In this document: in pieces, positions 4,537-56,725 of the stretch | How positions within the stretch are numbered: the first letter of the stretch is position 1 | Layout: the number at the start of each line of letters is the position of its first letter | NCBI RefSeq assembly: GCF_001898575.1 | Contig: NZ_MKUD01000020.1 | Location: forward strand, 62,001 to 126,000 | Source: Spirosoma sp. 48-14 | GTDB taxonomy: Bacteria; Bacteroidota; Bacteroidia; Cytophagales; Spirosomataceae | Direction: 5' to 3' | DNA: 64,000 nucleotides | Notes under the pieces: generated by a model | The model's input: only the letters and a program-made list of their open reading frames with translations | Databases searched by the model: none | Told to the model about the DNA's origin: nothing | Translations under genes and position numbers: made by a program

Positions 4537-4654
4537 TGAATAATGAACAATGCACAATGTAAAATGAGTAATGAACCTATGCAGCGTCAGCTTCGATGGG
4601 CATATTGGCTATCCATACTCGTTACTCATTTAACATTATCCATTATTCATTATA
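4537..4654. repeat. Heptad-repeat inverted repeat overlapping the 5' end of porU
   Basis: The left arm (about 4540-4577) is five consecutive 7-nt units of the form AATGNNN. The right arm (about 4621-4654) is the matching series of ATTNNNC-type units. Apart from a few mismatches the two are complementary over about 33 bp, with a loop of about 43 nt. The element lies over the porU start codons and encodes part of its signal peptide. It belongs to the hairpin family at 9309, 11571, 14550, 16888, 27542, 47658, 47909 and 56671. Confidence 0.75.
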
Positions 4655-7600
4655 AAGCCCATTCGCAATCGGTATTACGAGAAGGAATTTGGGTAAAGAT
4701 TGCGGTCACCGAATCGGGTGTTTATCGACTTAGCCAGGCTCAATTAACAAAGATTTCTCCTGCCTTTTCAACGGCCGACCCCCGAAAGTTGCGCTTGTAC
4801 GGGAATGGGGGGGCTGTTCTACCGCAGTCGAATGCTATAGCCAGATCCACTGATTTAACTGAAAATGCAATTCAGGTAATTGGTGAGGCCGATGGTCGGT
4901 TCGATGCGGAAGATTATGTGCTGTTTTTTGGTCAAAGTCCCCATGTAGTTCGATACGATTCAGTAAGCCAGCGATTTACGCATCAAATCAATCCCTATTC
5001 CGACACTACCTTTTATTTCCTGACAATTGGTACTTCTGCTGGACTCCGAATTACTGAGCGATCAGCAGGAGCGGTAGGAGGGGCATCTACTGTAACTACC
5101 TTCAACGATTATCAATTTCATGAGCAGGATCTGACCAAAGTGCCAGCCGTTCGCTCAGGCCGAGAGTGGTTAGGTGAATACCTGACTACCGATACAACAA
5201 AGGTCGTTTCATTTGATGTGCCGGGCCTTGTGGCCAACACACCTATCCGGCTAACCGCTTCGGTGGTGGCTGGGGCTACAGTGGCTACGCAATTTCGCGT
5301 GCAACTAAACGATCAACAGATTGGAACAATGCCAATGGCTCCGGTCTCAGGGTATGAGTATGATTATCAGGGGATCGCAAGAACCGACACCTTTCTGACC
5401 AGACTTGCCGCGGGCGATAGTCCTATTCGGTTAGCGGTAACCTTTCGAAAAAATGGCTTGTATTCGGCGCAGGGCTATTTGAATTATCTGGGTGTACAAA
5501 CCCAACGGGAGCTACGGCAAGTTGATCGGCCAACGTGGGTGCGTCGGTCTCCGGCAGGGCAGTACAAAGTCAGGCAGGCCAGTAGTAGTCTGCGTATCTG
5601 GGATATTACCAATCCGTTAGCTCCTATATCGCAGGCATATGAGTTGTCGGCTAGTCAGGAAGCGGGTTGGGGAGCCACCAAACGAAGTGATTATTTTCTT
5701 TTTACGGATACTCAACTGCTTTCGCCTGTTTTACTGACAGTGGTTGCCAATCAGAATATACGTAGCCAGGATACCCCCGATTTGCTCATTGTGACGCCAG
5801 CATCCTGGAAAACGCAGGCTGATCGGTTGGCCCAATTTCGACGCGATCATGATCAGTTGTCGGTGATTGTTGTAACAACACAGCAACTGTATAACGAATT
5901 TGGGTCTGGTTTGCCCGATCCTACGGCCATTCGGGATATGGCCCGCTACTTCTACCAGAAGCAGCCTACGAAACTCCGCTACTTATTACTTTTTGGTGAT
6001 GCTACCTACGACTATCGGAATATAGCCGGACAGGTTAGTGCGTCGCAACTGGCCAATATGGTGCCAGTATATGAAAGTCGGGAATCACTTCATCCGGTAT
6101 TAAGCTATTCCTCCGACGATTATTTTGGCTTTATGGATGTCAATGAGGGTGAATGGCCCGAGAACGATCAGGGGGATTATCGGATGGATATTGGCGTCGG
6201 TCGTCTTCCTGTGAAATCTGTAGATGAAGCTCAAACGGTTGTTGACAAGCTGATTCGGTATAGCTCAGACCCGTCTATCACGGGCGATTGGCAAACAAAA
6301 GTAATGTTTGTCGCCGACGATGGAGACTATAATATCCATCAACAGGATGCCGATCAAATGGCTAAAATCGTAGAGAGAACCTCTCCGGCCTACCGGCCCG
6401 AACGAATATTTCTGGATGATTTTGTGCAGGAAAATACATCCAGTGGACAGAAAGCTCCGCTAGTTAATCAGGTTATTGATCAGGCCGTTACGAACGGCCG
6501 GCTGATCATCAACTATAGCGGCCATGGTGGAATTGTGGGCTTGGCCGATGAGCAGATCGTAACCCTTCAGGATATTCTTGGGTGGCGAAATAGCCGTTTG
6601 CCGTTATTTGTTACGGCTACCTGTCAGTTTGGGCGATACGATGACCCAAGTGTTACCTCGGGTGCTGAACTTACGCTATTAAGCCGGACGGGGGGCGGAA
6701 TTGGGTTGCTGACAACAACACGGCCTGTGTATGCCAATACGAATCTGCTCCTGAATGAAGCCTTCTACAATGCTGTTTTTACGCCTATCAATGGCCAGAT
6801 GCCCCGGCTTGGCGATGTAATGAGGCTGACAAAGAACAATAGTTTAACCGGGCCGGTCAATCGGAATTTTGCGCTACTGGGCGACCCCTCCATGCGATTA
6901 GCGTATCCAAAGGCCCAGGCTGTGCTCACGCAGGTAAATGGTAAGACTATTTCTGCAAACCGAATAGATACACTGCATGCCTTACAAACGGTTGACCTAA
7001 CAGGACAAATTCAGCAGGCAGGCCAGCAAATAACTGCGTTTACAGGCACCGTCCGTTTGTCATTATACGATAAAGCGGCTACCCACACCACGCTTGGCTC
7101 TGAAGCCGGGGCTCCCAAGATGACATATCAGGCATTTAGTAATCCAATTTTTACAGGGCAAATCCCCGTTCAACAAGGGCAGTTTACAGCACGCTTTACT
7201 ATTCCTAAAGATATTGACTATACAGTCGGGAACGGAAAGTTGTATCTCTACGCCGTTCGGGCTGATAGCCTGCTGGATGCGGTCGGGAGTTATGATAGTT
7301 TGCGGATTGGTGGCAGTGTATTTACTGATAGTATCGATACGCAACCACCTTCAATGACGCTGGCTGTGGTTGGTGGAACAACGGCAGGTGAAAGTGTACG
7401 GATTGCCGGCCCAGACGTAACCCTACGGATACTGCTTAAAGATAATCGGGGAATAAACATTGCCCGTTCGGGTTTAGGACATGAGCTAACAGCCCAATTG
7501 GCCTCGCAGCCAGCGGTTATTTTAAACGACAACTATGTGGCCAATGGAGCCGATGGCCGACAGGGTGAAGCCTTGTATACATTCCGAAATTTGTCGGCCG

Positions 7601-8001
7601 GTCAATATACAGTACGGGTTAAAGCCTGGGATATTAACAATAATTCAAGTGAGGGTACGTTGACCATAATAGTTTCTGACCGTCCTGGATTAGCTTTGCG
7701 GGCGTTTCGGGTAAGCCCGAACCCAATGACTGAACTGGCAACGTTAACGGCTGAGTTGAATCGGTCGGGTGAGCCACTGGATTGGGTGCTGAGTGTATAT
7801 GACTTATCCAGTCGGTTATTGAGCCAGAAAACAGGGCAGTGTACGAATTGTGATGCCGCTATAGCAGTGGGATCATGGAACGGCCGAACCGATGCCGGTC
7901 AGCTAATGCCAAATGGATTATATATCGTCCGGCTTGACATTCGCTCAGCGGTAGACGAAACAACGGCCATCGGCACTAGTCGAATTGTAATAACAAGATG
8001 A
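4543..8001 (+). CDS. porU: Type IX secretion system sortase PorU
   Basis: Cell-surface cysteine protease (peptidase family C25, gingipain-like). It removes the C-terminal sorting domain from T9SS cargo and attaches the cargo to the surface. The full-length frame is 1152 residues, normal for PorU. A signal peptide ends at AHSQS; then come an N-terminal beta region and the C25 catalytic domain with His661 in NYSGHGG and Cys694 in TATCQFG (numbering from ATG 4543). A C-terminal CTD-like domain ends in VSPNP and NGLYIVRLD. Three in-frame ATGs are possible (4543, 4564, 4579); ATG 4579 gives the most compact signal peptide. All three lie in a large imperfect hairpin. porV follows 115 nt downstream, the usual pairing. 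Confidence 0.93.
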   Translation: MNNAQCKMSNEPMQRQLRWAYWLSILVTHLTLSIIHYKAHSQSVLREGIWVKIAVTESGVYRLSQAQLTKISPAFSTADPRKLRLYGNGGAVLPQSNAIARSTDLTENAIQVIGEADGRFDAEDYVLFFGQSPHVVRYDSVSQRFTHQINPYSDTTFYFLTIGTSAGLRITERSAGAVGGASTVTTFNDYQFHEQDLTKVPAVRSGREWLGEYLTTDTTKVVSFDVPGLVANTPIRLTASVVAGATVATQFRVQLNDQQIGTMPMAPVSGYEYDYQGIARTDTFLTRLAAGDSPIRLAVTFRKNGLYSAQGYLNYLGVQTQRELRQVDRPTWVRRSPAGQYKVRQASSSLRIWDITNPLAPISQAYELSASQEAGWGATKRSDYFLFTDTQLLSPVLLTVVANQNIRSQDTPDLLIVTPASWKTQADRLAQFRRDHDQLSVIVVTTQQLYNEFGSGLPDPTAIRDMARYFYQKQPTKLRYLLLFGDATYDYRNIAGQVSASQLANMVPVYESRESLHPVLSYSSDDYFGFMDVNEGEWPENDQGDYRMDIGVGRLPVKSVDEAQTVVDKLIRYSSDPSITGDWQTKVMFVADDGDYNIHQQDADQMAKIVERTSPAYRPERIFLDDFVQENTSSGQKAPLVNQVIDQAVTNGRLIINYSGHGGIVGLADEQIVTLQDILGWRNSRLPLFVTATCQFGRYDDPSVTSGAELTLLSRTGGGIGLLTTTRPVYANTNLLLNEAFYNAVFTPINGQMPRLGDVMRLTKNNSLTGPVNRNFALLGDPSMRLAYPKAQAVLTQVNGKTISANRIDTLHALQTVDLTGQIQQAGQQITAFTGTVRLSLYDKAATHTTLGSEAGAPKMTYQAFSNPIFTGQIPVQQGQFTARFTIPKDIDYTVGNGKLYLYAVRADSLLDAVGSYDSLRIGGSVFTDSIDTQPPSMTLAVVGGTTAGESVRIAGPDVTLRILLKDNRGINIARSGLGHELTAQLASQPAVILNDNYVANGADGRQGEALYTFRNLSAGQYTVRVKAWDINNNSSEGTLTIIVSDRPGLALRAFRVSPNPMTELATLTAELNRSGEPLDWVLSVYDLSSRLLSQKTGQCTNCDAAIAVGSWNGRTDAGQLMPNGLYIVRLDIRSAVDETTAIGTSRIVITR

Positions 8002-8048
8002 ATTAACGCCTTAAAATCACTCATTTTTTCTAATCCAAGGATTCATTG

Positions 8049-8056
8049 TAATTTTG
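8049..8056 (+). promoter_or_regulatory. -7 element upstream of porV
   Basis: TAATTTTG matches TAnnTTTG, and a T-rich stretch sits near the -33 position without a clean TTG. A transcript starting just after it would exclude the upstream in-frame TTG at 8054 and supports ATG 8117 as the porV start. Confidence 0.5.
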
Positions 8057-8116
8057 ACCGCACAGCCCTGCCGTACTTACCACAACCAGTGGCTGTCGTT
8101 GACCAACACTCTTTGT

Positions 8117-9310
8117 ATGAAGCGCACTTTTTTCCGTGTTATACTCGGCGTCTGCAGTTTCTTCCCACTCGTCGCATCTGCTCAAAATAATCTTAACGGC
8201 CAGCCTCTTAATGTTCCAACTTCATCTGTTCCATTTCTGAATTTTACGCCTGATGCTCGTTCGGGTGCATTGGGTGATGCGGGCGTGGCTTTGGGCGATG
8301 CAGACGCTAACTCGGTGTTCTGGAATCCATCGAAGCTGGTTTTTGCCAAAGAGAGTAAGGGGGTAGCGCTTTCATATACACCCTGGTTGCGGAATCTTAT
8401 CGGCGATATGTATTATACGTATCTAAGTGGTTACTCAAAAGTGGGTAAAAACACGGCTATATCAGGATCGCTGCTTTACTTCGATCTCGGAACCGTGGAT
8501 TTTACAACTGCCAATGGGGTTGCAGCCGGGACGTTTAACTCGCGAGAATATGCCATTACAGCTTCGGTTTCTCAACGGCTTTCCGAAACGTTTTCTCTTG
8601 CCGCCAGCTTTAAGTACCTTAACTCTAACCTGGCAGCAGGCAGCAGCAGTCCAGGGCTGAAACCAGGTTCAACTGCTGCTGCTGAAATCAGTGCGTATTA
8701 TCATGACGAAGCGCGTGATAATGCAACGGGTAAAGGTGTAGGCTGGGCCTTTGGTGGTATGATTTCTAACTTAGGAGGTCGACTGAACTATGGCGGTACG
8801 CAGAGCTATTTCATTCCGACAAACCTTCGCTTAGGGACTTGTCTGACCCTGTTTGCCGACCAGTATAATAAATTCAACTTCGTGTTGGATGCTAATAAAC
8901 TGATGGTCCCAACGCCAAACTATCAGACTGTCAATGGGCAATTGGTTAATGTAAATGCCAACAAAAATTATTTTGATTCGATCTTTGGGTCGTTTGCTGA
9001 TGCACCGGGTGGATTTAGCGAAGAACTGAAAGAGATTACCTTGTCGACAGGGGTTGAATACTGGTATAATGACCAATTTGCAGCACGGGTCGGCTATTTT
9101 AACGAATCGAACGAAAAAGGAGGGCGCAAATACGTAACAACTGGTATTGGCCTTCGGCTTCAACAGCGCTTTGGCGTCGACTTCTCATACCTAATTCCGG
9201 TTAAACAAGGTAGCCCGCTGGCCGATACGTTCCGTATTTCGCTGGTTTTCAACTTCGCTAAAGGAAATGGTATCGGTGGTGACGACGAAGCCTTAAACGA
9301 CGAAAATTAA
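8117..9310 (+). CDS. porV: Type IX secretion system outer membrane protein PorV (LptO)
   Basis: Outer-membrane beta-barrel of the FadL-like fold. It collects T9SS cargo from the translocon and shuttles it to PorU. From ATG 8117 it is 397 residues with a signal peptide ending VASAQ. The conserved N-terminal mature motif VPFLNFTPDARSGALGDAG, with ANSVFWNPSKL after it, is diagnostic of PorV/PorQ-type proteins. Alternating beta-strand patterns fill the rest, and the protein ends in an acidic tail. It follows porU directly, and its stop codon lies inside the perfect 35-bp hairpin at 9309-9396. Together with porU it explains how the sorting-tailed subtilases at 56.8-63.7 kb would reach the surface. 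Confidence 0.93.
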   Translation: MKRTFFRVILGVCSFFPLVASAQNNLNGQPLNVPTSSVPFLNFTPDARSGALGDAGVALGDADANSVFWNPSKLVFAKESKGVALSYTPWLRNLIGDMYYTYLSGYSKVGKNTAISGSLLYFDLGTVDFTTANGVAAGTFNSREYAITASVSQRLSETFSLAASFKYLNSNLAAGSSSPGLKPGSTAAAEISAYYHDEARDNATGKGVGWAFGGMISNLGGRLNYGGTQSYFIPTNLRLGTCLTLFADQYNKFNFVLDANKLMVPTPNYQTVNGQLVNVNANKNYFDSIFGSFADAPGGFSEELKEITLSTGVEYWYNDQFAARVGYFNESNEKGGRKYVTTGIGLRLQQRFGVDFSYLIPVKQGSPLADTFRISLVFNFAKGNGIGGDDEALNDEN

Positions 9311-9396
9311 AGAGTGAAATAGCGAACGAGTGAATGAGTGAAATAAGCTTTCTTTAGCATTTTTCACTCATTCACTCGTTCGCTATTTCACTCTTT
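9309..9396. repeat. Perfect 35-bp inverted repeat built from 8-nt words
   Basis: Arms 9309-9343 and 9362-9396 are exact reverse complements with an 18-nt loop. The left arm is a degenerate tandem of 8-nt words of the form GNGAANNA and begins inside the porV stop codon. It should form a very stable RNA hairpin that could end porV transcription or protect the 3' end. There is no T-run directly after the stem, so it is not a textbook terminator. Confidence 0.9.
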
Positions 9397-9404
9397 CCTT
9401 TTAT

Positions 9405-10685
9405 ATGACTCTCGATAGAACACAATCTCCCGCCTTTCAGGCCATTCACGAAGTACATTTACCTTCTGTTCAATCGCATCGCTTAGACAATGGTGTTCCG
9501 CTGCACTTAATTTCGGTAGCGCAGCAGCCCGTCCTTCGCCTGGAATGCGTTTTTGAGGCTGGAACCTGGTATGAGCAAGTGCCAGGCAGTGCATTTTTTG
9601 CCGTAAAGATGCTTGCTGAAGGAACTGCATCGCGCTCATCAGCTCAAATCAGTGAATACATCGATCGATATGGGGCCTTTCTGGAACTGAATAGTGGACC
9701 CGATCGAGCGAGTGTGGTTATTTACTGCCTTACCAAGTTCCTGCCGAACGTTTTACACTTATTGAGAGAAATGCTCAATGAGCCAACCTTTCCGCAAAAG
9801 GAACTGGAGGATTTACGGAATATTACACTGCAAAATCTGCGAGTCAATTTTGAAAAGAATGCGTATCTGGCTGGTATTCTGCTTCGCGAAAAACTGTTTG
9901 GAGCCGATCACCCCTACGGACGTAGCCAGCGACCTGCTGCTATTGAACAGTTAAATCGTGATCAGGTGGTAGCGTTCTATGAACGAGTCATTCAAAACCG
10001 ACCGTTCCAGATCATACTGGCTGGGCAGGCTACCGAAACCGAAGTAATACTTATCAATCAGGTATTGGGCCAGTCGTTTATCCGAACAGATAGTTTACTT
10101 CCTTTGGCAGATAAGCCGTCAGAATCAGATGAGCGGGTTGTGCTGGCAGAGAAACCGGATAGCCTACAATCGTCCATACGGATAGGGCGTCGGCTGTTTA
10201 CACGTTCTCATCCCGATTTTTTTCGGATGCTCGTGACAAACGAGGTACTGGGAGGTTATTTTGGTTCGCGACTAATGAAGAATATTCGGGAAGAGAAAGG
10301 CTTTACGTATGGTATTTCATCGAATATGCCGTCGTTCCGACGTGATGGGTATTTTATGATCGGTACAGATGTCAACAAAGAAAATACTCAACAGACCTTA
10401 GACGAGATTCAGAAAGAAATTCATACGTTGCAGACGGAACTGGTTTCAGACGACGAACTTGACATTGTAAAAAATTATATGGCTGGCGAATTTGTTGGCT
10501 CACTCAACACTCCATTCGAGATTGCCGACCGCTATAAGGTGATTTTACTGGATGGTATGCCTGCCGATTTTCTGACAACGTATATTTCACATATTCGATC
10601 TGTTACCTCGGAAGATATTATGGAAACTTCTAGGCAGTATTTAGATATAAATAGTCTAAAAGAGATAGTTGTTGGCGGTAAATAG
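9405..10685 (+). CDS. M16 family zinc peptidase-like protein lacking the HxxEH motif
   Basis: A 426-residue member of the pitrilysin/insulinase-like M16B family: N-terminal M16 domain (about 25-175) and C-terminal M16_C domain (about 180-360) with the substrate-pocket segment EEKGFTYGISS. Where active members have HxxEH this protein reads FFAVK (in SAFFAVKMLAEGT), so the zinc ligands and the general base are missing. In this family such non-catalytic chains normally pair with an active partner, like the beta subunit of mitochondrial processing peptidase. No active M16 partner lies nearby. ATG 9405 starts just after the porV hairpin. It has no visible promoter of its own. Confidence 0.85.
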   Translation: MTLDRTQSPAFQAIHEVHLPSVQSHRLDNGVPLHLISVAQQPVLRLECVFEAGTWYEQVPGSAFFAVKMLAEGTASRSSAQISEYIDRYGAFLELNSGPDRASVVIYCLTKFLPNVLHLLREMLNEPTFPQKELEDLRNITLQNLRVNFEKNAYLAGILLREKLFGADHPYGRSQRPAAIEQLNRDQVVAFYERVIQNRPFQIILAGQATETEVILINQVLGQSFIRTDSLLPLADKPSESDERVVLAEKPDSLQSSIRIGRRLFTRSHPDFFRMLVTNEVLGGYFGSRLMKNIREEKGFTYGISSNMPSFRRDGYFMIGTDVNKENTQQTLDEIQKEIHTLQTELVSDDELDIVKNYMAGEFVGSLNTPFEIADRYKVILLDGMPADFLTTYISHIRSVTSEDIMETSRQYLDINSLKEIVVGGK

Positions 10686-10737
10686 GAGTTGATTATAACT
10701 TATTCGCTATATGACCTTGGTTTGTAATCGAAAAAAA

Positions 10738-10768
10738 TTGGCCGTTTAGTAACAATCCCTTAATTTTG
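10738..10768 (+). promoter_or_regulatory. Promoter of plsY (TTG-N20-TAATTTTG)
   Basis: TTG 10738-10740, a 20-nt spacer and TAATTTTG 10761-10768 match the Bacteroidota consensus. The plsY start lies about 80 nt downstream. Confidence 0.65.
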
Positions 10769-11517: not shown

Positions 11518-11570
11518 AGTTTTGCCCCGTGGTTGCGCGAAAAGTCCGTAACTTCGGGGCAAACTTTTTT
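11518..11570 (+). terminator. Terminator after plsY
   Basis: TTTGCCCCG (11521-11529) pairs with CGGGGCAAA (11555-11563), followed directly by CTTTTTT. The 25-nt loop is long but the stem and T-run are clear. Confidence 0.7.
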
Positions 11571-11646
11571 GGATGTATGATATATGATATAGGAAGTTTG
11601 ATGTATTAATGGCTGAGCTATATCATACATCATACATCATACATCC
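11571..11646. repeat. Heptad-repeat inverted repeat with unequal arms
   Basis: The left arm from 11571 consists of 7-nt units of the type GATRTAT. The right arm (11618-11646) repeats the complementary unit ATCATAC and carries one 7-nt copy more than the left arm needs. The outer ends (GGATGTATGAT) match exactly. The heptad register continues through the loop. It directly precedes the dipeptidase start at 11651. Confidence 0.8.
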
Positions 11647-11650
11647 AGAT

Positions 11651-13060: not shown

Positions 13061-14551
13061 ATGAAAAAAACGCTGTTGGCTCTTTCAATAAGTTTCATTG
13101 CTGCCAACTGGGCTTTGGCTCAGCAGGCTCCCACGTCGCAGCCGACTCGTGTCCTGACCCCCGCCGAGCAACGTCAGAAAGAAAAAATAGAGCGAGAAAT
13201 TCAGCGGGAACGGCAAATTCGGGCAGAATGGTTGCAGAAACAGCGTGAGTACGAAGCCAAACAGGCTGAGAAAGAACGGCAGAAACAGGCCAAAAAAGCA
13301 GCAAAAGATAACCCGCAGCCGGAAACGGTCAAGCCGGTCCCGGCTGCGGTAACACCACCCGCTGCGCCATCAGTAGTTCCACCTGTTGTTAGTCAACCTG
13401 CCGAAACAACACCAGCAGTGGCTGAGCCATCACGAAAAGAGCTACGCGAGAAACGGAAGCAGGAAGAGCAGGAGGCCAAGGCTGCAAAAGCTGCACAGGA
13501 CAAAGCCGATCGGGAAGCGAAAGCGGCAAAAGCTGCGCAAGAGAAGGCTGAACGTGATGCCAAAAAGGCTGCTGAATCGAGTTCGGCGTCCCCTCGTTCG
13601 TTTGCGCCACCAGCCCCAGTAGCACCGGCTCCAGTTGCGGCTGAACCCGTAGCTCCACCACAAACCGAAAAGGCGCAGCGTCCAAGAAAGGAAAAGAAAG
13701 CGGCTCCGGTTAAACCTGACTCCATAGCCGAAGTACTTGCCAATTCAGCAACACCATCGGTTGTTCGGGCCAATAAGGAGTTTTTGCCGAAAGGCCATTT
13801 GTTCGAGCCTATTTTGCTGGACCCTCTGGAAGCGCAAACATACGGTAGTGTTTTCCCTGCTTACTGGACTGAAGGTGAAAAATATAAAGGAAGTATAGTG
13901 CCTTTTGCGTTTGGTTTTGCCAAGCCCTTTTATCGACATACAAGTGCGCCCGACCGAGCCGAAGAATGGGTACTGGATTTAGCTTCATTTACCCAGTTTG
14001 AAGCCTACCATGACGCGGTGGCTAACAAAGCCCGTCGGCGGATTATGAACACGGATTACAAAATCAGTATCATCTATAATATCCGGCGGGGCGAGAACAA
14101 TTACCGAATTCGGGTTTATCATCTATCGTCGCACCTGGGAGATGATTACATTTTTCGGAATCAAATAACGGCTCCTTCCCCGAATGCCGTAAACTACGAA
14201 TTGCTGGATTTTACCTATAGCCGAACGGTAAACAACTGGCGGCTCTATGGTGGAGCAGGGGTTGTACTGCGTAAAACCGAGGAACGGAAGCCCCTGAGCG
14301 CTCAATTTGGTACATTTTACAAAAAGCCATCTACCAGAGCAACGCGATTAGTAGGTGGTGTAGATGTTAAATTCTGGCAGCAGACCAACTTTCGGCCAGG
14401 TATTCATGGTGGCATTGGCTTCGAACTGGGCCGTACACAAAATAATTTAACGTTTCTTCTGGAGGGGTATTCAGGATTCAGGCCGTACAGCCAGTACGAA
14501 GATCAACAAACAGCCTGGATTGGCCTGGGACTGTACCTGAACCCGTTCTGA
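13061..14551 (+). CDS. DUF1207-like outer membrane protein with a long Lys/Ala/Glu-rich coiled-coil segment
   Basis: From ATG 13061 the protein has 496 residues. A signal peptide ends WALAQQ, and about 200 residues of charged Ala/Lys/Glu/Gln coiled-coil sequence broken by Pro/Ala-rich linkers follow. A C-terminal domain starts near HLFEPILLDP and contains YRIRVYHLSSHLGDDYIFRN and LLDFTYSRTVNNWRLYGGAG. That pattern resembles DUF1207, a family of predicted periplasmic or outer-membrane proteins of unknown function. The C-terminus ends in Phe, as outer-membrane barrels often do. The coiled-coil part is unusual for the family and could span the periplasm; that is inference. The gene is 48 nt downstream of the dipeptidase and may share its transcript. 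Confidence 0.6.
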   Translation: MKKTLLALSISFIAANWALAQQAPTSQPTRVLTPAEQRQKEKIEREIQRERQIRAEWLQKQREYEAKQAEKERQKQAKKAAKDNPQPETVKPVPAAVTPPAAPSVVPPVVSQPAETTPAVAEPSRKELREKRKQEEQEAKAAKAAQDKADREAKAAKAAQEKAERDAKKAAESSSASPRSFAPPAPVAPAPVAAEPVAPPQTEKAQRPRKEKKAAPVKPDSIAEVLANSATPSVVRANKEFLPKGHLFEPILLDPLEAQTYGSVFPAYWTEGEKYKGSIVPFAFGFAKPFYRHTSAPDRAEEWVLDLASFTQFEAYHDAVANKARRRIMNTDYKISIIYNIRRGENNYRIRVYHLSSHLGDDYIFRNQITAPSPNAVNYELLDFTYSRTVNNWRLYGGAGVVLRKTEERKPLSAQFGTFYKKPSTRATRLVGGVDVKFWQQTNFRPGIHGGIGFELGRTQNNLTFLLEGYSGFRPYSQYEDQQTAWIGLGLYLNPF

Positions 14552-14644
14552 TGTAGGATATATGATGTATGTTATAAGCTGTAGGTGACATTATACTAAG
14601 CCTTATAGCATACATCCTACATCCTACATCACATATCATACATC
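14550..14644. repeat. Heptad-repeat inverted repeat between the DUF1207-like gene and purB
   Basis: The left arm (14550-14578) consists of 7-nt units GATGTAG, GATATAT, GATGTAT. The right arm (14602-14644) is a longer run of complementary units with repeated ATCCTAC words. The inner 15 bp (GATGTATG and TATAAG) pair almost perfectly; the outer part pairs out of register. The word is the same as in the element at 11571. It overlaps the last base of the upstream stop codon and ends 5 nt before purB. Confidence 0.75.
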
Positions 14645-14649
14645 ATTTT

Positions 14650-16068: not shown

Positions 16069-16872
16069 CTAGCCTTTCGAAAGTTCGGTGGCCCGGATCT
16101 GGGCTGCCTTGATACCAGCAACTAACGTATCGGCCAAAGCGCCATTTTCAAACGTTCGTAGAGCGGCTTCGGTTGTGCCGCCTTTGGAGGCTACCGCTTT
16201 AATGAGATCATCCAGCGACTTGTCTGCATTATTGATCAGGTGATAAGCGCCAAGCATAGTCTGTTTAACCAATAAGGCAGAAACGGCATCATCGAAGCCC
16301 ATCTGCCTGCCAGCATCAACCATTGCTTTTACCACATAGTAGAAATAGGCAGGGCCGCTACCACTCAAGGCCGTAACGGCATCGAGCATGGCTTCGTCTT
16401 CCAGAAAAATGGATCGCCCGGTGGCATTGATCAGGTTTTCGACGCGACGCAGGTTGGCTAGATCAACTTCTTTAGCAGCTGTGAAACCCGTAATACCCAT
16501 ACCCAGCATAGCGGGGGTATTAGGCATCGCCCGCACAACCAGCGGATGCCCGAGTTTTTCCTGAATCTGCGCGATTGGAATACCCGCCATAATCGATAAA
16601 ATCACCTGATTTGGCTGGATTATGGCCCGGAGAGATTCGTGAACACTGTTGAAATCCTGTGGTTTGACAGATAAGATAATCAGATCCGTTTCGCCAACGT
16701 GCGGTCCGATGGTTTCTACCACAACACCGGCCTTTTCGGCCTTCAGCGCTTCTGAGCGATCCGCACTTTTTTCAATTAAAAGCAGGTTTTCTTTTTTTAC
16801 CAGATCGTACTGTAAAAACGATTTGGCAAATGCCATACCCATGTTGCCGCAGCCAACAATAGCGATTTTCAT
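16069..16872 (-). CDS. proC: Pyrroline-5-carboxylate reductase
   Basis: NAD(P)H-dependent enzyme of the last step of proline synthesis. The N-terminal Rossmann motif VGCGNMGMAF (about 5-14), VVRAMPNTPAMLGMGITG in the middle, and the C-terminal helical domain with SGSGPAYFYYVVKAMVDAG (about 169-187) and SKGGTTEAAL are diagnostic. At 267 residues it is normal length. It is the last gene of a minus-strand run gatB, TlpA-like, proC, separated from the TlpA-like gene by a heptad-type hairpin. Confidence 0.95.
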   Translation of the reverse strand: MKIAIVGCGNMGMAFAKSFLQYDLVKKENLLLIEKSADRSEALKAEKAGVVVETIGPHVGETDLIILSVKPQDFNSVHESLRAIIQPNQVILSIMAGIPIAQIQEKLGHPLVVRAMPNTPAMLGMGITGFTAAKEVDLANLRRVENLINATGRSIFLEDEAMLDAVTALSGSGPAYFYYVVKAMVDAGRQMGFDDAVSALLVKQTMLGAYHLINNADKSLDDLIKAVASKGGTTEAALRTFENGALADTLVAGIKAAQIRATELSKG

Positions 16873-16887
16873 AATGGATGGGGAAAT

Positions 16888-16957
16888 GGATAAAGGAAGA
16901 AAGGGACGAAGAGAGTGAGATAAGCTTTCTCCCCTTCGTCCCTTTCTTCCTTTATCC
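16888..16957. repeat. Perfect 24-bp inverted repeat with purine-rich arm
   Basis: Arms 16888-16911 and 16934-16957 are exact reverse complements with a 22-nt loop. The purine-rich arm is a degenerate run of about 7-nt words (GATAAAG, GAAGAAA, GGGACGA). It lies between the TlpA-like gene and proC and starts 7 nt past the TlpA-like stop. Confidence 0.85.
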
Positions 16958-16963
16958 TTTCGT

Positions 16964-18097
16964 TTATTTTACTTGTAACACTTCTTCTAATTTTTGCTCG
17001 AGCGCTTCTCCTCGCAGGTTTTTGGCAATGATCTTACCGTCTTTGTCGAGTAGGAAAGTAGCCGGAATCGCTTGTACGCCATACTGCTGGGCTGCTGCCG
17101 ATTGCCAGAATTTCAGATCCGAAACGTGTGTCCAGGTCAGGTTGTCGTTGCGAATGGCTTTTACCCACTTGTCTTTTGTCTGGTCGAGCGATACACTGTA
17201 AATGGCAAAGCCGTGATCTTTAAACTTATTGTACATTCGGACCACATTGGGGTTTTCGGCGCGGCAAGGGCCACACCACGATGCCCAAAAGTCGATCAGT
17301 ACGTATTTGCCGCGCAAAGACGAGAGGAGTATCGGATTTCCGGTGGTATCGCTCAGGGCAATTTCAGGAGCAGAGGCACCGATGGCAACGCCTTTGATTC
17401 GGGCAACCCGGCCAATTAGTGATTTAGCATGAGGACTATTCGGATTCTCTTTCTCGAACTTCTGCGCCAGTTGGTCGTAAACAGCAAAATCGGTATCGAT
17501 ATTAATGAAATTCAGCGCAAATAACGATACCAGCGAGGTGCCCATTTCGGGTAGCATGGCTTTTACTTTGTTGACTACATCCTGCTCGGCGGCCTGGTAT
17601 TCCTGCTCAATCTGAGCAATCCGCTTATTATCTTTCTTTTCCGTAGCAGCCGCAACCTGTTTGTTCCACGTCTGTACTTTGGCTTCCATATCGGTACGGA
17701 GCGTATTCAGCTTCTCGTAATACTCCATGTTTTTGGAACCTATAATGGTAGCCTTTCCCATCTGGCCGGTTTTTTGATCCATTCGAAAGCCGTCGGCCGT
17801 TACTTTCAGGGTTTCGCCCCCTTCAACCAACAGGGCCATTTTTTGTCCACCTCCTACATTAAGAATGAATACTTCTCCACCATCGGCTACTTTGCCATTG
17901 AGGGTGAAGCTATTATCGGTTCCAACTTTTGTGGAGTCGATTTTACGCGTAGGTTGGGAGTTCGCTTCCAGGTAGACATAACTGCCCGGTGTTGCTTTGG
18001 CGATTTTTCCAGTTACGGTAAAAGGCTTTGTGTTTTGTGCGTTGGTTGTCAGGCTTAGGGCCATAAGGCTCGCCAGGCAGCATACTAAATGTTTCAT
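16964..18097 (-). CDS. TlpA family thioredoxin-like protein with N-terminal DUF4369
   Basis: A 377-residue secreted or periplasmic thiol-disulfide protein. A signal peptide ends TTNAQ, then a DUF4369-type beta domain (about 25-120), a helical charged linker (about 120-210) and a TlpA/AhpC-type redoxin domain with the active site FWASWCGPCRAENP. The resolving cis-Pro region (YGVQAIPATFLLDKDG) is intact, so it should be redox-active. Such proteins are abundant in Bacteroidota and reduce or isomerise periplasmic disulfides; the partner is unknown. Its ATG overlaps the gatB stop (ATGA at 18094-18097), which suggests translational coupling to gatB. Confidence 0.88.
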   Translation of the reverse strand: MKHLVCCLASLMALSLTTNAQNTKPFTVTGKIAKATPGSYVYLEANSQPTRKIDSTKVGTDNSFTLNGKVADGGEVFILNVGGGQKMALLVEGGETLKVTADGFRMDQKTGQMGKATIIGSKNMEYYEKLNTLRTDMEAKVQTWNKQVAAATEKKDNKRIAQIEQEYQAAEQDVVNKVKAMLPEMGTSLVSLFALNFINIDTDFAVYDQLAQKFEKENPNSPHAKSLIGRVARIKGVAIGASAPEIALSDTTGNPILLSSLRGKYVLIDFWASWCGPCRAENPNVVRMYNKFKDHGFAIYSVSLDQTKDKWVKAIRNDNLTWTHVSDLKFWQSAAAQQYGVQAIPATFLLDKDGKIIAKNLRGEALEQKLEEVLQVK

Positions 18098-27528: not shown

Positions 27529-27541
27529 AAAGGAGTCAGGA

Positions 27542-27614
27542 GTTAGGAGCGAGAAGTGAGAATCTCTCCGGTAGCGTTTAGCTTGCGCCAGCATTCTCAC
27601 TTCTCACTTCTCGC
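27542..27614. repeat. Heptad-repeat inverted repeat between recQ and purD
   Basis: Arms 27542-27563 and 27593-27614 are perfect 22-bp complements with a 29-nt loop. The left side, including bases before the perfect arm, reads as 7-nt units of the form GGAGNNA followed by GAAGTGA. It starts 14 nt after the recQ stop and ends 20 nt before purD. Confidence 0.85.
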
Positions 27615-27634
27615 TCCTAACTACTCAACTAAGA

Positions 27635-45922: not shown

Positions 45923-45961
45923 CGCCGAGGGATTACCAGATAGTCTGGTAATCCCTCGGCG
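45923..45961. terminator. Bidirectional terminator between the acyltransferase-like gene and rng
   Basis: Perfect 18-bp arms (45923-45940 and 45944-45961, starting CGCCGAGGG) with a 3-nt loop, between convergent genes. Confidence 0.85.
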
Positions 45962-45998: not shown

Positions 45999-47561
45999 TT
46001 AAGCATTATTACTGAGTTCGATTTCTTCTCCCTGCTTGTTAAAGAACTTAAAGTTAACAATTCCTAACGAACTGTCCTTAATTACTTTAACCCATGTTTT
46101 ATATTTCATATACCATTGCACTTGTTTGGAGTAAATACCCTTAGTGTAATAAGCATATAAAAGTGGGTTCAAAGAAATCGAAATGCCCCGTTCATTTTGC
46201 TTGGTCAGAATATAATCGAGATTGTTTTCGATTACATCCGTCACTAACACGCTAGCCTGAATGGTCCCTGTACCACCACAGGTTGGGCACACTTCCCGCG
46301 TCACAATATTCATTTCAGGCCGAACACGCTGACGGGTAATCTGCATCAGCCCGAATTTGGTAAGTGGCAGAATCGTAAACTTCGAGCGCTCGGGTTTCAT
46401 TTCGTCGCGCATGATATCCTGCAGAAGTTTTTTGTTTTCTGCCTTCTTCATGTCGATGAAGTCAATGACAATAATGCCACCCATGTCGCGCAGCCGAAGC
46501 TGCCGGGCAATTTCCTTGGCTGCCTCCCGATTCACACTAATAGCGGTGGCCTCCTGGTCTTCTTCGGAGTTCGACTTGTTGCCGCTGTTAACATCAATCA
46601 CGTGGAGCGCTTCGGTATGCTCAATAATCAGGTAGCCACCACCTGGCAAGCTCACCGATCGGCCAAACAGCGATTTAAGCTGTTTTTCCAATCCTAATGC
46701 CTCAAAAATTTTCGTTTTGCCTGTATAGAGCTTAACGATTTTTTCTTTCTCGGGAGCTATGGTGTGAATATAGTCTCTGATTTCGTCGTACGATTCACGC
46801 GTATCGACAGTAATACTTTCGAACGATTCGTTGAGCATATCCCGCAGAATCGACGAAGCCCGGTTCATTTCGCCCAGAACCCGATCGCGCGGTTTAGCTT
46901 CGCTCAGTGACTTAATGGCCTGATCCCACTTGGCTAATGAGTTCTGTAGGTCGCGGTCAAGTTCCTCTACGTCTTTGTCCTGAGCTACCGTTCGAACAAT
47001 AACGCCGAAATTTTGCGGTTTTAATGACGACATGAGCCGCATCAGCCGCGACCGTTCGGCACGGTCGGTAATCTTTTTGGAAAGGTTTACGCCATCTGAG
47101 AATGGCACCAGCACTAAATAGCGGCCAGCAATTGAGATATCGCAGGAAAGGCGTGGACCTTTGGTTGAGATAGGTTCTTTAACTACCTGAACCAGGATGG
47201 GAGCGTTTTTCGTCAGTACCTTATCGATTTTCCCAATTTTCTCGATAGGTGGCTCAAGCTTCATACCACTGAGCCGCCCGGTTGTGACGCGCTTGGCGAT
47301 TACATCTTTGACCAGTTTGTTGAGCGAATTAACATTCGGCCCCAGATCCTGATAGTGCAGGAAACCATCTTTTTCGTGACCAACGTCGACAAAGGCCGCG
47401 TTGAGACCGGAAGATAATTTCTTGACTGTTCCTAAGTAAAGATCGCCAACGGTGAAGCTGCTGTCTAACTCTTCTTCGTGATACTCCAGCAGTCTCTTGT
47501 TTTGCAAGAGCGCAATCCGATCACCTTTCTGAGTAGAACTGATAACTAATTCATTACTCAC
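45999..47561 (-). CDS. rng: Ribonuclease G
   Basis: Endoribonuclease of the RNase E/G family that matures 16S rRNA and cleaves mRNA. An N-terminal S1 domain (about 38-120, with GDLYLGTVKKL and AAFVDVGHEKDGFLH) is followed by the catalytic domain with the two metal Asp in VIDVNSG and IVIDFIDM, and the zinc-link CPTCGGTG near 425. The C-terminus is the small domain only, so it is G-like rather than a full RNase E. Length 520. The start is GTG 47561. A terminator-like hairpin lies 32 nt upstream of the start codon. Confidence 0.94.
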   Translation of the reverse strand: MSNELVISSTQKGDRIALLQNKRLLEYHEEELDSSFTVGDLYLGTVKKLSSGLNAAFVDVGHEKDGFLHYQDLGPNVNSLNKLVKDVIAKRVTTGRLSGMKLEPPIEKIGKIDKVLTKNAPILVQVVKEPISTKGPRLSCDISIAGRYLVLVPFSDGVNLSKKITDRAERSRLMRLMSSLKPQNFGVIVRTVAQDKDVEELDRDLQNSLAKWDQAIKSLSEAKPRDRVLGEMNRASSILRDMLNESFESITVDTRESYDEIRDYIHTIAPEKEKIVKLYTGKTKIFEALGLEKQLKSLFGRSVSLPGGGYLIIEHTEALHVIDVNSGNKSNSEEDQEATAISVNREAAKEIARQLRLRDMGGIIVIDFIDMKKAENKKLLQDIMRDEMKPERSKFTILPLTKFGLMQITRQRVRPEMNIVTREVCPTCGGTGTIQASVLVTDVIENNLDYILTKQNERGISISLNPLLYAYYTKGIYSKQVQWYMKYKTWVKVIKDSSLGIVNFKFFNKQGEEIELSNNA

Positions 47562-47593: not shown

Positions 47594-47643
47594 AAAAAAA
47601 TAGAAGCCACGTTCGGGCTTTACAGACCGGCCGAGGCTTCTAT
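47594..47643 (-). terminator. Terminator-like hairpin just upstream of rng
   Basis: A 9-bp stem (47600-47608 and 47635-47643, TAGAAGCC/GGCTTCTA) with a second inner TCGG/CCGA pairing. On the minus strand it is followed by seven T (47600-47594). It lies between the COX24-type gene and rng in the direction of rng transcription, only 32 nt before the GTG, so it may attenuate rng. Confidence 0.65.
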
Positions 47644-47657
47644 AAAATAAGTTTTAT

Positions 47658-47744
47658 GTTTACGGTTTACCGGTTACGGTTGGCCAATGCGACTATAGAT
47701 TATAGCGTCAGCCAACCGTAGACTGTAAACCGTAAACCGTAAAC
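47658..47744. repeat. Heptad-repeat inverted repeat with unequal arms
   Basis: The left arm (47658-47684) is GTTTACG-type 7-nt units. The right arm (47711-47744) contains one unit more (three GTAAACC-type copies). Ends GTTTACGGTTTAC and GGTTGGC pair perfectly. It starts 7 nt beyond the COX24-type stop codon. Confidence 0.8.
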
Positions 47745-47750
47745 TATAAC

Positions 47751-47840
47751 CTATTTTTTCTTATGCCGATTCTTTCTAAGCCGCTTCTTCCGTTTGTGAG
47801 TAGCAATCTTGTGCCGTTTCCGTTTCTTACCGCAAGGCAT
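47751..47840 (-). CDS. AURKAIP1/COX24-domain protein, 29 residues, probable ribosome-associated peptide
   Basis: ATG 47840 to TAG 47751 encodes 29 residues starting MPCGKKRKRHK and ending RHKKK, with 18 or more Lys/Arg/His. This matches the very short, extremely basic AURKAIP1/COX24-domain proteins that are conserved in Bacteroidota. Relatives are the mitochondrial small-subunit protein mS38 and mycobacterial bS22, so a place on the 30S subunit is likely. It is easily missed because of its size. It lies upstream of rng on the same strand, and rRNA processing by RNase G would fit that context. Confidence 0.85.
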   Translation of the reverse strand: MPCGKKRKRHKIATHKRKKRLRKNRHKKK

Positions 47841-47908: not shown

Positions 47909-48002
47909 AATGTATAATGAAAAATGAATAATGTAGAATGTGTTGATCGGGAGTATGTATCCTGATCCATTTACACTGTTCATTGTACATTCTTTATTTT
48001 AG
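47909..48002. repeat. Heptad-repeat inverted repeat with an inner hairpin
   Basis: The left arm (47909-47942) is five AATGNNN units, the same word as at 4537 and 56671. The right arm (47968-48002) carries the complementary units, pairing out of register. Between them GATCGGGA and TCCTGATC form an inner stem. The right arm overlaps the last codons of the TPR gene. Confidence 0.65.
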
Positions 48003-48848
48003 CCGTTCCTCATATTCCTGAACAGCCGCCAGAATCTGCGGGTCTTTCTCCTGCTTCTTCACTTGCGCCAGAACTTGTCTGGCTTCAGCCTTCTGACCCG
48101 CTTCGGCTAAACTTACACCTAAATAAAACTGCGCTTTCCGACTGGCTGGATTTGTAGCCAGAATTTGTCGGAACCGTTCAATGGCCCGCTCATACTGATT
48201 CGACCGCATGGCCAGTAAACCTAAATTAAACAGAGCCAGTTCATTCGTTGGGTCCTGTTTGATAACCTCCCGCAGTAGCATAATCCCCTGCATGGGGGTG
48301 TCGGTATTGACATAAGTCATAGCCATATTCGCTTTTGCCGACAGTAAATTTGGGTTTTTGGCGAGTGCCTGCCCGTAATACTCACGGGTTTTCTGCCCCA
48401 GAAGCGCTGTTTTCTTTTCATCAACGGCAAAACTGTAGGCTTCGAAAAACGCATCGCCAGCTCGTAGCAGATTACGCTCATTAGGCACTGATTTGACCAG
48501 TTCTTCAGCATAATAGGCCGCACTATCGTAGCGGGTAACTTCATGCAAAAGGGTAATCAGTTTTTCGGCAATAGCTTCTTTCTGGGTAGAATTAGCTTTG
48601 GTAAATTCTGTCTCCAGCGTAGTTAGCCGTTTTTGCTGCTCGGTCGATAATGGTTTTTCATGTACAGATGCACCATTACCCGATGCCGTACGTGATTCGG
48701 TCTTCGACGGATTGGTAGCAGGAGCCTGCATGGCACGACCACCAAGCTGCTTGTTATCATTTCGTACGACAACCTTCGGTAAGGAGTACAATCCTACCGT
48801 GAGGGCCGAAGCCAATACGATAACAAGCAGCACGGATTTATTCATCAT
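47994..48848 (-). CDS. Membrane-anchored TPR protein
   Basis: A 284-residue protein with one N-terminal membrane helix (about 5-24), a Ser/Thr/Ala-rich linker to about 65, and tetratricopeptide repeats over about 75-280. Clear repeats include AKANMAMTYVNTDTPMQGIMLLREVIKQDP and ALFNLGLLAMRSNQYERAIERFRQILATNP. It probably serves as an extracytoplasmic scaffold. Its position between the HU and COX24-type/rng genes suggests cotranscription with HU. Two consecutive ATGs at 48848 and 48845 are possible starts. The function is not known. Confidence 0.8.
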   Translation of the reverse strand: MMNKSVLLVIVLASALTVGLYSLPKVVVRNDNKQLGGRAMQAPATNPSKTESRTASGNGASVHEKPLSTEQQKRLTTLETEFTKANSTQKEAIAEKLITLLHEVTRYDSAAYYAEELVKSVPNERNLLRAGDAFFEAYSFAVDEKKTALLGQKTREYYGQALAKNPNLLSAKANMAMTYVNTDTPMQGIMLLREVIKQDPTNELALFNLGLLAMRSNQYERAIERFRQILATNPASRKAQFYLGVSLAEAGQKAEARQVLAQVKKQEKDPQILAAVQEYEERLK

Positions 48849-50500: not shown

Positions 50501-50552
50501 ATCTTCTTTAACGCCACATAAGTTAATTCGTAACACCAACAATACAAACAGC

Positions 50553-51077: not shown

Positions 51078-51119
51078 TCATCGCACAGACGCTCTATTGT
51101 TGAACGAGAACTGATATAC

Positions 51120-52463: not shown

Positions 52464-52506
52464 CCTAATTTTATAGAGTATGGCGCATAGGCTTTGTCTA
52501 CGACAG

Positions 52507-53604: not shown

Positions 53605-53780
53605 GATCGTAGTTTGTAACAGTGAGTTGTGCATTTAACAAGGAAAATACCCAGGTTGTTGGAAAACAATGGGATATAATTAACCCGCTTTGACAGAATG
53701 GTAAACCTTCCGGCAATCGTCAATAGGTAAATGCAACCGCAAAGCCCCTTTACAACTTATTGGATAAATGCCCTTCTCCT

Positions 53781-54899: not shown

Positions 54900-54917
54900 T
54901 CTACTGCGTCGATCGCA

Positions 54918-54965
54918 TAAACAATGGCCTTCGGAATGCACTGTTTTTCCGAAGGCCATTGTTTA
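54918..54965 (+). terminator. Terminator after the DUF3500 gene
   Basis: Perfect 19-bp arms (54918-54936 and 54947-54965, core GGCCTTCGGAA) with a 10-nt loop. No long T-run follows, but the stem is very strong. Confidence 0.8.
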
Positions 54966-55054
54966 TATGGTCGACCTAATAATCATTTAACAACTTTTAA
55001 GCCTTTTTGTAGGGTACTTCTTCGTAATTTGTGAAGATTATTTGTTATCAATTC

Positions 55055-56659: not shown

Positions 56660-56670
56660 TTGAGAAACTC

Positions 56671-56725
56671 CTAATTGAAAATGAGCAATGGCCTTATAGA
56701 TTGGTCATTGCTCATTTTTAGTTAG
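56671..56725. repeat. Heptad-type inverted repeat between convergent subtilase genes
   Basis: Arms 56671-56693 and 56703-56725 pair over 23 bp with three mismatches, all G-T compatible in RNA; core AAAATGAGCAATG. The left arm shows AATGNNN units, as at 4537 and 47909. Probably a bidirectional terminator. Confidence 0.75.

Follow-up and report, generated by a model that had tools for sequence, protein, structure and literature searches.

Hairpins with arms built from degenerate 7-nt words are already known in cyanobacteria, and the closest precedent in the sources cited here for the elements that we describe in Spirosoma is the P6b stem of the group I intron in the Nostoc tRNA-Leu(UAA) gene (PMC4476775). 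According to that report, the words TDNGATT and NNTGAGT form the same stem, shifts from one word to another have occurred repeatedly, and 7-nt repeats have been gained or lost on one side of the stem or on both. Heptamers also occur as TAACTGA direct repeats in intergenic DNA of Beggiatoaceae, cyanobacteria and five Bacteroidetes, where in certain genomes they lie immediately before start codons and differ by 7-nt indels between close strains (PMC4679880). Furthermore, heptanucleotides are the most abundant class of long simple sequence repeats in prokaryotes, a preference put down to polymerase slippage (Mrazek et al. 2007, cited in PMC4679880). Two other systems are relevant for their symmetry: REP elements, which measure 20-40 bp and are tagged by a terminal tetranucleotide, GTAG or CGTC (PMC3733652), and quasipalindromes, in which correction by template switching brings the arms of an imperfect inverted repeat into agreement (PMC7202029, PMC8604942).

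The window analysed here, a stretch of 64,000 nucleotides from Spirosoma sp. 48-14, was described in the initial annotation as containing nine intergenic hairpins of one architecture, with arms composed of tandem 7-nt words (8-nt at 9309). The corresponding features are:

4540..4653, + strand: heptad hairpin AATGNNN (arms 4540-4574/4619-4653; best lag 7); 5' arm in the porU start region, in-frame ATG (4579) in the loop
9303..9402, + strand: octad hairpin of GAGTGAAA/GAGCGAAC type (arms 9303-9349/9356-9402; best lag 8); overlaps the stop codon of porV (8054-9310) and is followed by a gene (9405-10685) with a below-cut-off YfmF match
11570..11647, + strand: heptad hairpin GATGTAT/GATATAT (arms 11570-11594/11623-11647; best lag 7); precedes a dipeptidase gene and overlaps the start of its mechanical ORF (11609)
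14549..14646, + strand: heptad hairpin GATGTAG/GATATAT (arms 14549-14578/14602-14631; best lag 7); flanked by an ORF ending at 14551 and by purB (14650)
16885..16960, - strand: purine-rich octad hairpin (arms 16885-16911/16934-16960; best lag 8, 0.68); flanked by minus-strand ORFs upstream (16964-18097) and downstream (16069-16872)
27531..27625, + strand: heptad hairpin GGAGNNA (arms 27531-27563/27593-27625; best lag 7); between recQ (stop 27528) and purD (start 27635)
47650..47745, - strand: heptad hairpin GTTTACG (arms 47650-47684/47711-47745; best lag 7); between a bTHX-like small ORF (47751-47840) and an RNase E/G gene (45999-47561), both minus
47909..47991, - strand: imperfect heptad hairpin AATGNNN, downstream of a TPR gene (47994-48848, minus)
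56663..56733, no strand given: hairpin with two or three AATG words (arms 56663-56693/56703-56733; best lag 7), between convergent genes

The initial observation is confirmed at its core, with corrections. The hairpin at 47909-47991 folds only with bulges (z of -3.5 on one strand and -3.6 on the other, against single-letter shuffles) and was not picked up by our hairpin finder, which is ungapped and therefore misses some hairpins; AATG words are present at its position in some relatives. The ninth, annotated at 56671, looks like an ordinary terminator of convergent genes and was counted as such rather than as a family member, its counterpart in the relative G038 being a hairpin without heptads. 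As to word length, the 8-nt unit at 9309 was read correctly, while the purine element at 16888 is also an octad. Placement is mostly intergenic, but the first element extends into the coding sequence, its 3' arm encoding part of the PorU signal peptide. Ordinary hairpins of the window had their best lag at 8 (0.54; position 30200) or at 10 or 12 (36875, 45923 and 54908).

These elements resemble the Nostoc stem in that their arms are degenerate 7-nt words, although in Spirosoma 8-nt units occur as well. P6b is a single locus in a self-splicing cyanobacterial intron, whereas the Spirosoma set is genome-wide, lies between protein genes and uses many words; none of the elements in the window holds a group I intron P6b position, as scans of the window gave no Rfam match at gathering score and no tRNA gene. 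With the TAACTGA repeats they share 7-nt words, a mostly intergenic location, which in some genomes is close to the next start codon, a patchy distribution and 7-nt indels between close strains, but those repeats are described as direct (with a single inverted case in that study's main genome) and as having one fixed word, whereas the Spirosoma words are heptads other than TAACTGA set in inverted arms, not tandem direct TAACTGA; the main text of that paper does not name Spirosoma (PMC4679880). Long simple sequence repeats, which show the same preference for 7 nt, are likewise tandem direct arrays rather than hairpin arms. Like REPs, the hairpins are palindromic, extragenic and dispersed, and lie near stop codons or supply them, but hairpins in the window span 61-114 nt, are word-built and carry no common tag (PMC3733652); inspected by eye, their feet are word-specific and show no terminal GTAG or CGTC tag on a 20-40 bp element. 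Quasipalindrome correction describes how mutations arise rather than a family of elements, and is a candidate process for keeping the Spirosoma arms alike. Our literature search found no report of heptad-arm hairpins in Spirosoma or its kin; in cyanobacteria the design was already known from the Nostoc trnL stem.

The arms of hairpins between Spirosoma genes favour periods of 7 and 8. In 157 arms pooled without selection from nine Spirosoma genomes, autocorrelation gave z = 10.7 at lag 7 and 5.8 at lag 8, with 5.6 at lag 14, 2.2 at lag 4 and at most 0.1 at the remaining lags, whereas 4916 windows of hairpin-free intergenic DNA gave -2.7, -0.9 and -2.2 at lags 7, 8 and 14. The shuffles behind these z values, the fold z values and the position-set statistics were of single letters. 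Outside the window, 20 stretches of 20 kb of the same genome contained 49 hairpins with arms of at least 18, of which 13 reached an autocorrelation of at least 0.6 at lag 7 and eight at lag 8 (shuffled arms: 0.30 and 0.32), with none at lags 3-6 or 9-12. Applied to 100 kb from each of eight further Spirosoma genomes, the same threshold gave 18 hairpins at lag 7, 12 at lag 8, four at lag 9 (three in G034), one at lag 10 and two at lag 12, so periods besides 7 and 8 do exist; one genome, G008, had no strong period 7 or 8 hairpin in the 100 kb scanned. These counts are samples of genomes: our own genome had 28 strong periodic hairpins in 464 kb, which by extrapolation would correspond to about 500 in total. 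The lag histogram by taxon used 68 of 80 loci (omitting L013, L030, L042-L045, L050, L052, L054, L074, L075 and L077).

Two word classes are dispersed in many copies. GGAGNNA forms a dispersed family in the genome of origin, in which all 20 relatives examined were hairpins with such arms, several with a common loop type. An AATG hairpin pattern gave 155 spans at period 7, nine at period 8 and none at period 6 (overlapping registers included), and the reversed control of the pattern gave none in this genome at any of the three periods; elsewhere this control was non-zero in one of 247 genomes (G181, 4) and, in a second survey, in three of 150 (G004, G360 and G397, 1 each). About five of the family's 36 genera carry the AATG type in abundance and it is rare in the others; its spans range from 0 to 155 across 18 Spirosoma genomes.

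Position relative to genes was analysed in nine genomes (1.26 Mb), with genes called by a simple ORF-plus-hexamer method, which missed the bTHX-like ORF at 47650 and thus gave wrong distances for that row. Of 62 periodic hairpins, 46 lay between co-directional genes, 11 in convergent gaps, two inside genes and only three in divergent, promoter-containing gaps, where 15.7 were expected by length (p = 2e-5). Ordinary hairpins were also rare in divergent gaps (6 against 28.3 expected), hence this avoidance is not special to the periodic ones. The residual gap was at most 40 nt for 36 of the 46 co-directional periodic hairpins as compared with 19 of 60 non-periodic hairpins, and the next start codon followed at a median of 13.5 nt (p = 2e-5 for distance), such that a periodic hairpin spans the gap from the stop codon almost to the following start.

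In different species the same gap often retains a hairpin although its word has drifted or been replaced. Between the bTHX and RNase E/G genes, a hairpin with z < -2.5 was present in 26 of 30 species and the best lag was 7 in 26 of 30, with varying words; the structure was also retained with a changed word at the recQ/purD and porV gaps, and the 11570 gap has a TTACGAT-type word in one relative (G014, L173) and another word in a second (G016, L177). Relative to G004, words differed at four loci with flanks 90-96% identical, and word differences were present even between sister species. A comparison of orthologous gaps in close relatives, as proposed in the initial annotation, found that sister species shared the periodic hairpin in 18 of 21 cases and, viewed in reverse, in 18 of 19 (largely the same loci); 40 of our 61 hairpins had an orthologous gap in the G004 stretches compared. 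The missing cases comprised octad remnants, decayed sequence and a different, longer sequence (one each). Six of eight hairpins compared with G038 were kept, those at 4540 and 27538 being absent. Of 30 Spirosoma porU gaps that were aligned, counting that of the window, 10 contained a lag-7/8 hairpin; none was found in the other 20, although the ungapped finder misses some. That words change while the hairpin often stays suggests that shape matters more than sequence.

Nevertheless, the pairing of periodic hairpins is loosely kept. In the comparison with G004, of 17 pairs in which both bases had changed, 14 remained Watson-Crick, while independent change of the two sides would give, by arithmetic from the comparison counts, about five double changes and fewer than two still pairing; the hairpin at 9303..9402 shows paired double changes relative to both G004 and G038. 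However, 21 periodic hairpins had 51 one-sided breaking changes against 14 paired double changes, as compared with 17 against 23 in 18 ordinary hairpins of the same genome. Substitutions per site, by arithmetic from the same comparison, were about 0.11 in stems and 0.15 in loops. Among sense-strand mismatches G.T exceeded A.C (87 vs 53, p = 0.005), an excess that stems mainly from one region in related species, around bTHX/RNase E/G (30 to 10, and 57 to 43 elsewhere). Indels of at least 3 nt, scored in 18 periodic and 14 other hairpins relative to G004, numbered 21, with 7 nt and 5 nt tied as the commonest sizes (four each) and six of unit size; eight of the 40 gaps (short or below 75% identity) were left out of this spectrum, including a word replacement at L157:16645.

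The arms also have a distinctive composition. As annotated, the first arm is G/A/T-rich: the 5' arm of periodic hairpins has 6% C, with G exceeding C in 59 of 62, while in 112 other hairpins G exceeded C in 67 and fell below it in 36, with nine ties. Because reverse complementation turns a hairpin into itself, the bias is the same on either strand; an almost C-free 5' arm implies an almost G-free 3' arm, so that the main pairing partner of each arm is the other arm. The shared tip motif GCTGACGC is enriched in hairpins (17 of 49 occurrences vs 0.7 expected), but was rejected as a defining core and is a minor tip, its inverted form occurring only 10 times in the genome. Stop codons in all three frames were found in 15 of 46 5' arms against 6.2 in shuffled arms, an excess that we set aside because the shuffle ignores the period.

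We consider it possible, with a probability of roughly 0.4, that Spirosoma and some related genera have intercistronic RNA hairpins which are kept as structures, renewed by slippage and arm-to-arm templating and partly spread by copying. The arrays could instead be selfish or neutral satellites, 7- or 8-nt inverted repeats built by slippage and template switching under weak selection and tolerated without function between cistrons, a reading that we hold to be somewhat less probable. Loose pairing with many one-sided breaks, the moderate difference between stem and loop substitution, the patchiness of AATG spans, the use of an arm for PorU signal-peptide codons and the increase of AATG spans with genome size (Spearman 0.67, 18 genomes) are what such satellites would show; the sharing of hairpins by sister species and, for one gap, their persistence through word changes in 26 of 30 species argue against it, as does the absence of period 7 from hairpin-free intergenic DNA, where slippage alone should leave it. 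The slippage invoked by the initial annotation is itself plausible, the unit-sized indels (6 of 21) pointing weakly to it.

That annotation coupled slippage to termination, and intrinsic terminators incidentally made of heptads seem very improbable. Periodic hairpins are strong (median MFE of -36.8), avoid divergent gaps as ordinary hairpins do and in part separate convergent genes, but most precede a co-directional start so closely that there is little room for a promoter, which fits a terminator poorly; their loops are larger than those of ordinary hairpins (median 22 vs 14), and at least five T in the next 8 nt followed only 6 of 46, a count that does not discriminate from ordinary hairpins (3 of 60) and is weak either way. 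It is also improbable that the hairpins are REP-like elements mobilised by a Y1 transposase (RAYT-type, Pfam PF01797). The dispersed GGAG family bears out part of the annotated self-propagation, stop codons are overlapped as reported for REPs (PMC3733652), PF01797 is matched in 29 of 36 Spirosoma genomes, and its counts rise with those of AATG spans (Spearman 0.65, 18 genomes). However, the spans correlate equally with genome size, from which the transposase link is not separable, and G032, with 20 AATG spans, and G001, with period-8 hairpins, have no PF01797 match. By eye, the word classes did not share a tetranucleotide at the foot, and 40 sister-species comparisons (largely the same loci, from both sides) revealed no clean empty site, as expected of a MITE or insertion element, for a periodic hairpin, whereas ordinary hairpins had near-empty gaps; together with the sharing by sisters, this is not like active transposons.

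Under the reading that we prefer, structures kept and renewed between cistrons, slippage would make arms longer and more uniform, template switching between arms would maintain complementarity, and occasional copying between loci would seed new gaps; a hairpin would persist where having its RNA form between two cistrons brings a benefit or, at the least, does no harm. Our guess at a function, made from sequence, is a sequence-independent RNA element between cistrons rather than a terminator. An RNA-processing signal, also among the annotated options, is compatible with the data and is the role we favour: a cut by a double-strand-specific RNase III-type enzyme, or a block to 3' exonucleases, might give two cistrons of one message separate fates. 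A stronger version, which we regard as rather unlikely, holds that what is inherited at each site is fold and period, not sequence, with the C-free and G-free arms as generative rule. Units of 7 or 8 nt and this composition would permit arms to be rewritten, and the hairpin between stop and start codon would outlast the rewriting.

If this were true, the cell would have hundreds of equivalent message-separating hairpins without a common sequence. Conserved non-coding elements are usually detected by conserved sequence, and searches of this kind would miss elements whose fold and position persist while the arms are rewritten. The hairpins would offer a natural series in which to ask how far an intercistronic RNA element depends on nothing but its shape, and they also bear on the upkeep of palindromes by arm-to-arm copying and on the preference for 7 and 8. 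Moreover, they may matter when operons and terminators are annotated in Spirosoma and its relatives, in which strong hairpins are readily labelled as terminators.

Nine hairpins in the window had been put forward in the initial annotation as intergenic elements with arms built of tandem words. All nine are confirmed as hairpins, with the following changes of class:

4537, overlaps the beginning of porU and is not wholly intergenic; an in-frame ATG (4579) lies within the loop, and the 3' arm codes for part of the PorU signal-peptide hydrophobic stretch
9309, octad arms, in agreement with the 8-nt words first noted
11571, hairpin as described
14550, hairpin as described
16888, octad unit in place of the purine heptad words proposed
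27542, hairpin as described
47658, hairpin as described
47909, imperfect hairpin, outside our list of 12 and recovered by separate folding
56671, two or three AATG words between convergent genes, treated as an ordinary terminator; its counterpart in the Spirosoma genome G038 is a hairpin lacking heptads

porU (4543) and porV (8054), two genes of type IX secretion, are adjacent (4543-9310), and a word-built hairpin borders each. For the 12 listed window hairpins, the best lag (autocorrelation distance within an arm) was 7 in six, 8 in three (9303, 16885 and, weakly, the ordinary hairpin 30200) and 10 or 12 in three. The window is 62001-126000 of contig C20 in an 8.68 Mb draft genome. A further 400 kb from that genome contained 49 hairpins whose arms reach 18 nt or more. 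Of these, 13 had an autocorrelation of at least 0.6 at lag 7 and 8 had one at lag 8, with no such hairpin at any other lag between 3 and 12; the shuffled-arm expectation is 0.30 for lag 7 and 0.32 for lag 8. With the cut again at 0.6 or above, eight other Spirosoma genomes (100 kb each) gave 18 hairpins at lag 7 and 12 at lag 8, besides exceptions at lags 9 (4), 10 (1) and 12 (2) that came mostly from one genome, G034. For the 157 arms measuring 20 nt or longer in the nine genomes, taken with no selection for periodicity, z was 10.7, 5.8 and 5.6 at lags 7, 8 and 14, versus -2.7, -0.9 and -2.2 in 4916 intergenic windows without a hairpin, which showed no excess. Lack of a lag-7 excess over matched inverted repeats had been named beforehand as decisive against the proposal; the excess is present relative to shuffled arms and to hairpin-free DNA. 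Hairpins from other genera formed a third comparison set, and strong period 7 or 8 was found in none of 32 from 15 Dyadobacter, 4 Runella and 21 other Cytophagales loci. A pattern for AATG-heptad hairpins matched 155 spans in the window's genome, overlapping registers within one element each being counted, and none when reversed; re-spaced to period 8 it gave 9 matches, and to period 6 none.

Across nine genomes (1.26 Mb), 62 hairpins were periodic, defined as autocorrelation of at least 0.55 at lag 7 or 8, and 112 were not. The periodic ones lie mainly in co-directional gaps (46, with 11 convergent, 3 divergent and 2 intragenic), versus 60, 42, 6 and 2 of the others, with 2 more at stretch ends. 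Divergent gaps hold fewer periodic hairpins than expected from intergenic length (3 versus 15.7, p 2e-5) and are likewise avoided by ordinary hairpins (6 versus 28.3). In co-directional gaps, periodic hairpins start a median of 3.5 nt past the stop codon and end a median of 13.5 nt from the next start; given these short distances, and a residual gap of at most 40 nt in 36/46 (19/60 for other co-directional hairpins), they mostly occupy the whole space between cistrons. Ordinary hairpins there are more often followed by a longer gap (median 63.5 nt).

The first arm had been described as G/A/T-rich, which is borne out: the periodic 5' arm contains only 6% C and 29% G in co-directional gaps, and G exceeds C in 59/62 periodic hairpins, versus 67 of the non-periodic ones (36 with less G than C, 9 ties). 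A C-poor arm opposite a G-poor arm would have few pairing options except its partner.

By sequence search, the closest relatives of the window's PurD are from Spirosoma (S. panaciterrae, 95%), and among the genomes searched G004 is nearest (PorU 95%). Among the records within loci L043, L045, L048, L049 and L013, those named Spirosoma fluviale are just 63-64% identical in PurD, and the one labelled Flavobacterium sp. SUN052 is 79% identical and has a heptad hairpin at recQ-purD; these names look wrong. Compared with G004, 21 periodic hairpins show 381 unchanged pairs, 66 one-sided changes (51 broken, 15 G.U) and 17 two-sided changes (14 Watson-Crick, 1 G.U, 2 broken), and 18 other hairpins show 335 unchanged, 28 one-sided (17 broken) and 26 two-sided (23 Watson-Crick). 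Compensation occurs in both classes, with more breaks tolerated in the periodic one. The ordinary hairpins of these sister species show more paired double changes (23) than one-sided breaks (17), and the ordinary convergent-gene terminator at 45923-45961 is rewritten in sequence across species, with 14 to 33 bp of perfect or near-perfect stem retained in its orthologues. On the sense strand, G.T mismatches outnumber A.C at orthologous gaps (59 versus 35) and with genome samples added (87 versus 53, p 0.005, a single region in related species supplying 30 versus 10), a weak sign of RNA-level selection.

The comparison of orthologous gaps in close species that had been proposed found a periodic hairpin in both this genome and G004 in 18/21 cases (18/19 from the other side), the sole missing copy leaving octad remnants, and retention in 6/8 against G038; at porU the search detected a lag-7/8 hairpin in only 10/30 aligned gaps. 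By eye, the word differs in 4/21 of the G004 comparisons, within flanks 90-96% identical. At L157:16645, AATGAAA-type words in one species stand against GATGTAT-type in the other, with near-equal lengths and identical borders; some differences, of one or two letters, could be drift and not exchange. The gap between the RNase E/G gene and an upstream ORF that we take to be bTHX-like gives z < -2.5 in 26/30 Spirosoma species and a best lag of 7 also in 26/30, with words including GTTTACG, GTTTGTG, GTTCGTG and GTAAGCA. Upstream of the same RNase E/G gene (47600-47643, minus strand), the Spirosoma rows listed largely share a hairpin GAAGCC...GGCTTC with a T-run after it, a possible regulatory leader or attenuator of that gene. 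The recQ-purD gap measures 66-100 nt in 12/13 loci (L001-L013, from which L008, measured wrongly, is excluded), and an ungapped finder detected a hairpin in 9/13, the words including GGAGTGA, AATGTAC and TGATGAA types, with TTAGTCG-type in L008 and TTAAGAG-type in L012. In 15 Dyadobacter loci this gap is 41-66 nt and such a hairpin is absent; four Runella loci have gaps of 80-102 nt, and five more remote loci have gaps of 4-10 nt. The porV octad arms carry paired double changes among the three closest species.

The recQ-purD GGAG hairpin has many relatives within its own genome. All 20 fetched (19 from the relatives' list, 1 from elsewhere) form hairpins of 22-47 bp whose arms are of the GGAG type, several with a common CCATCCGG-type loop or GCTGACGC-type tip, and so these copies are spreading or once spread. 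On contig C6 of this genome (about 136-147 kb; L257, L259, L264, L267), four GGAG hairpins with like flanks lie ~3.3-3.4 kb apart, apparently a row of duplicated genes with a hairpin beside each. The AATG pattern occurs in 8/247 genomes across the phylum, this one included (1-3 spans in the other seven), and in 40/150 genomes and 11/36 genera of the family, being abundant in about five genera and patchy within those. Periodic hairpins are not strictly limited to the family, since 16 loci from more distant Bacteroidota held six strongly periodic ones (four at lag 7, two at lag 8). Other palindromes, starting GTAGAGACGC...GCGTCTC (L156:5937, 9634, 17520; L232:4287), resemble GTAG-tagged REPs, repeats recorded in other phyla, Bacteroidetes not being among them in the accessible part of the source (PMC3733652). 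A further family of long hairpins, GTCATTCCGACG...GGAG.AATCT-like, occurs in several Spirosoma genomes (L228:6987, L231:19079, L216:13073, L226:16095).

According to the available text, heptad direct repeats are found in cyanobacteria, Beggiatoaceae and some Bacteroidetes (PMC4679880). Heptad hairpin arms, initially not known as described in this phylum, are known from the Nostoc trnL intron, which in the accessible portion of that paper shares with the Spirosoma hairpins both this build and word-to-word shifts (PMC4476775); for Spirosoma, the literature searched, a library with a minority of the subscription journals, yielded neither heptad hairpins between cistrons nor repeats of this kind.

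What the data show for these hairpins is a period, a place and a composition, persistence despite change of word, and one dispersed family. Their arms may be altered by slippage in whole units; among indels of 3 nt or more, whole units account for 6/21 in periodic versus 0/7 in ordinary hairpins, with 7 nt level with 5 nt among the sizes in periodic ones. Template switching from arm to arm, a known mechanism as far as the accessible texts go (PMC7202029, PMC8604942), may also act on them. That the repeats are a neutral satellite is a serious rival to the reading that these hairpins are retained for some use of a long intercistronic RNA hairpin. If they are so retained, RNase III is our guess for what cuts these stems. 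At about 20-38 bp, the periodic stems fall in the size class that RNase III cuts, and as it needs no sequence, freely rewritten arms would fit such cutting.
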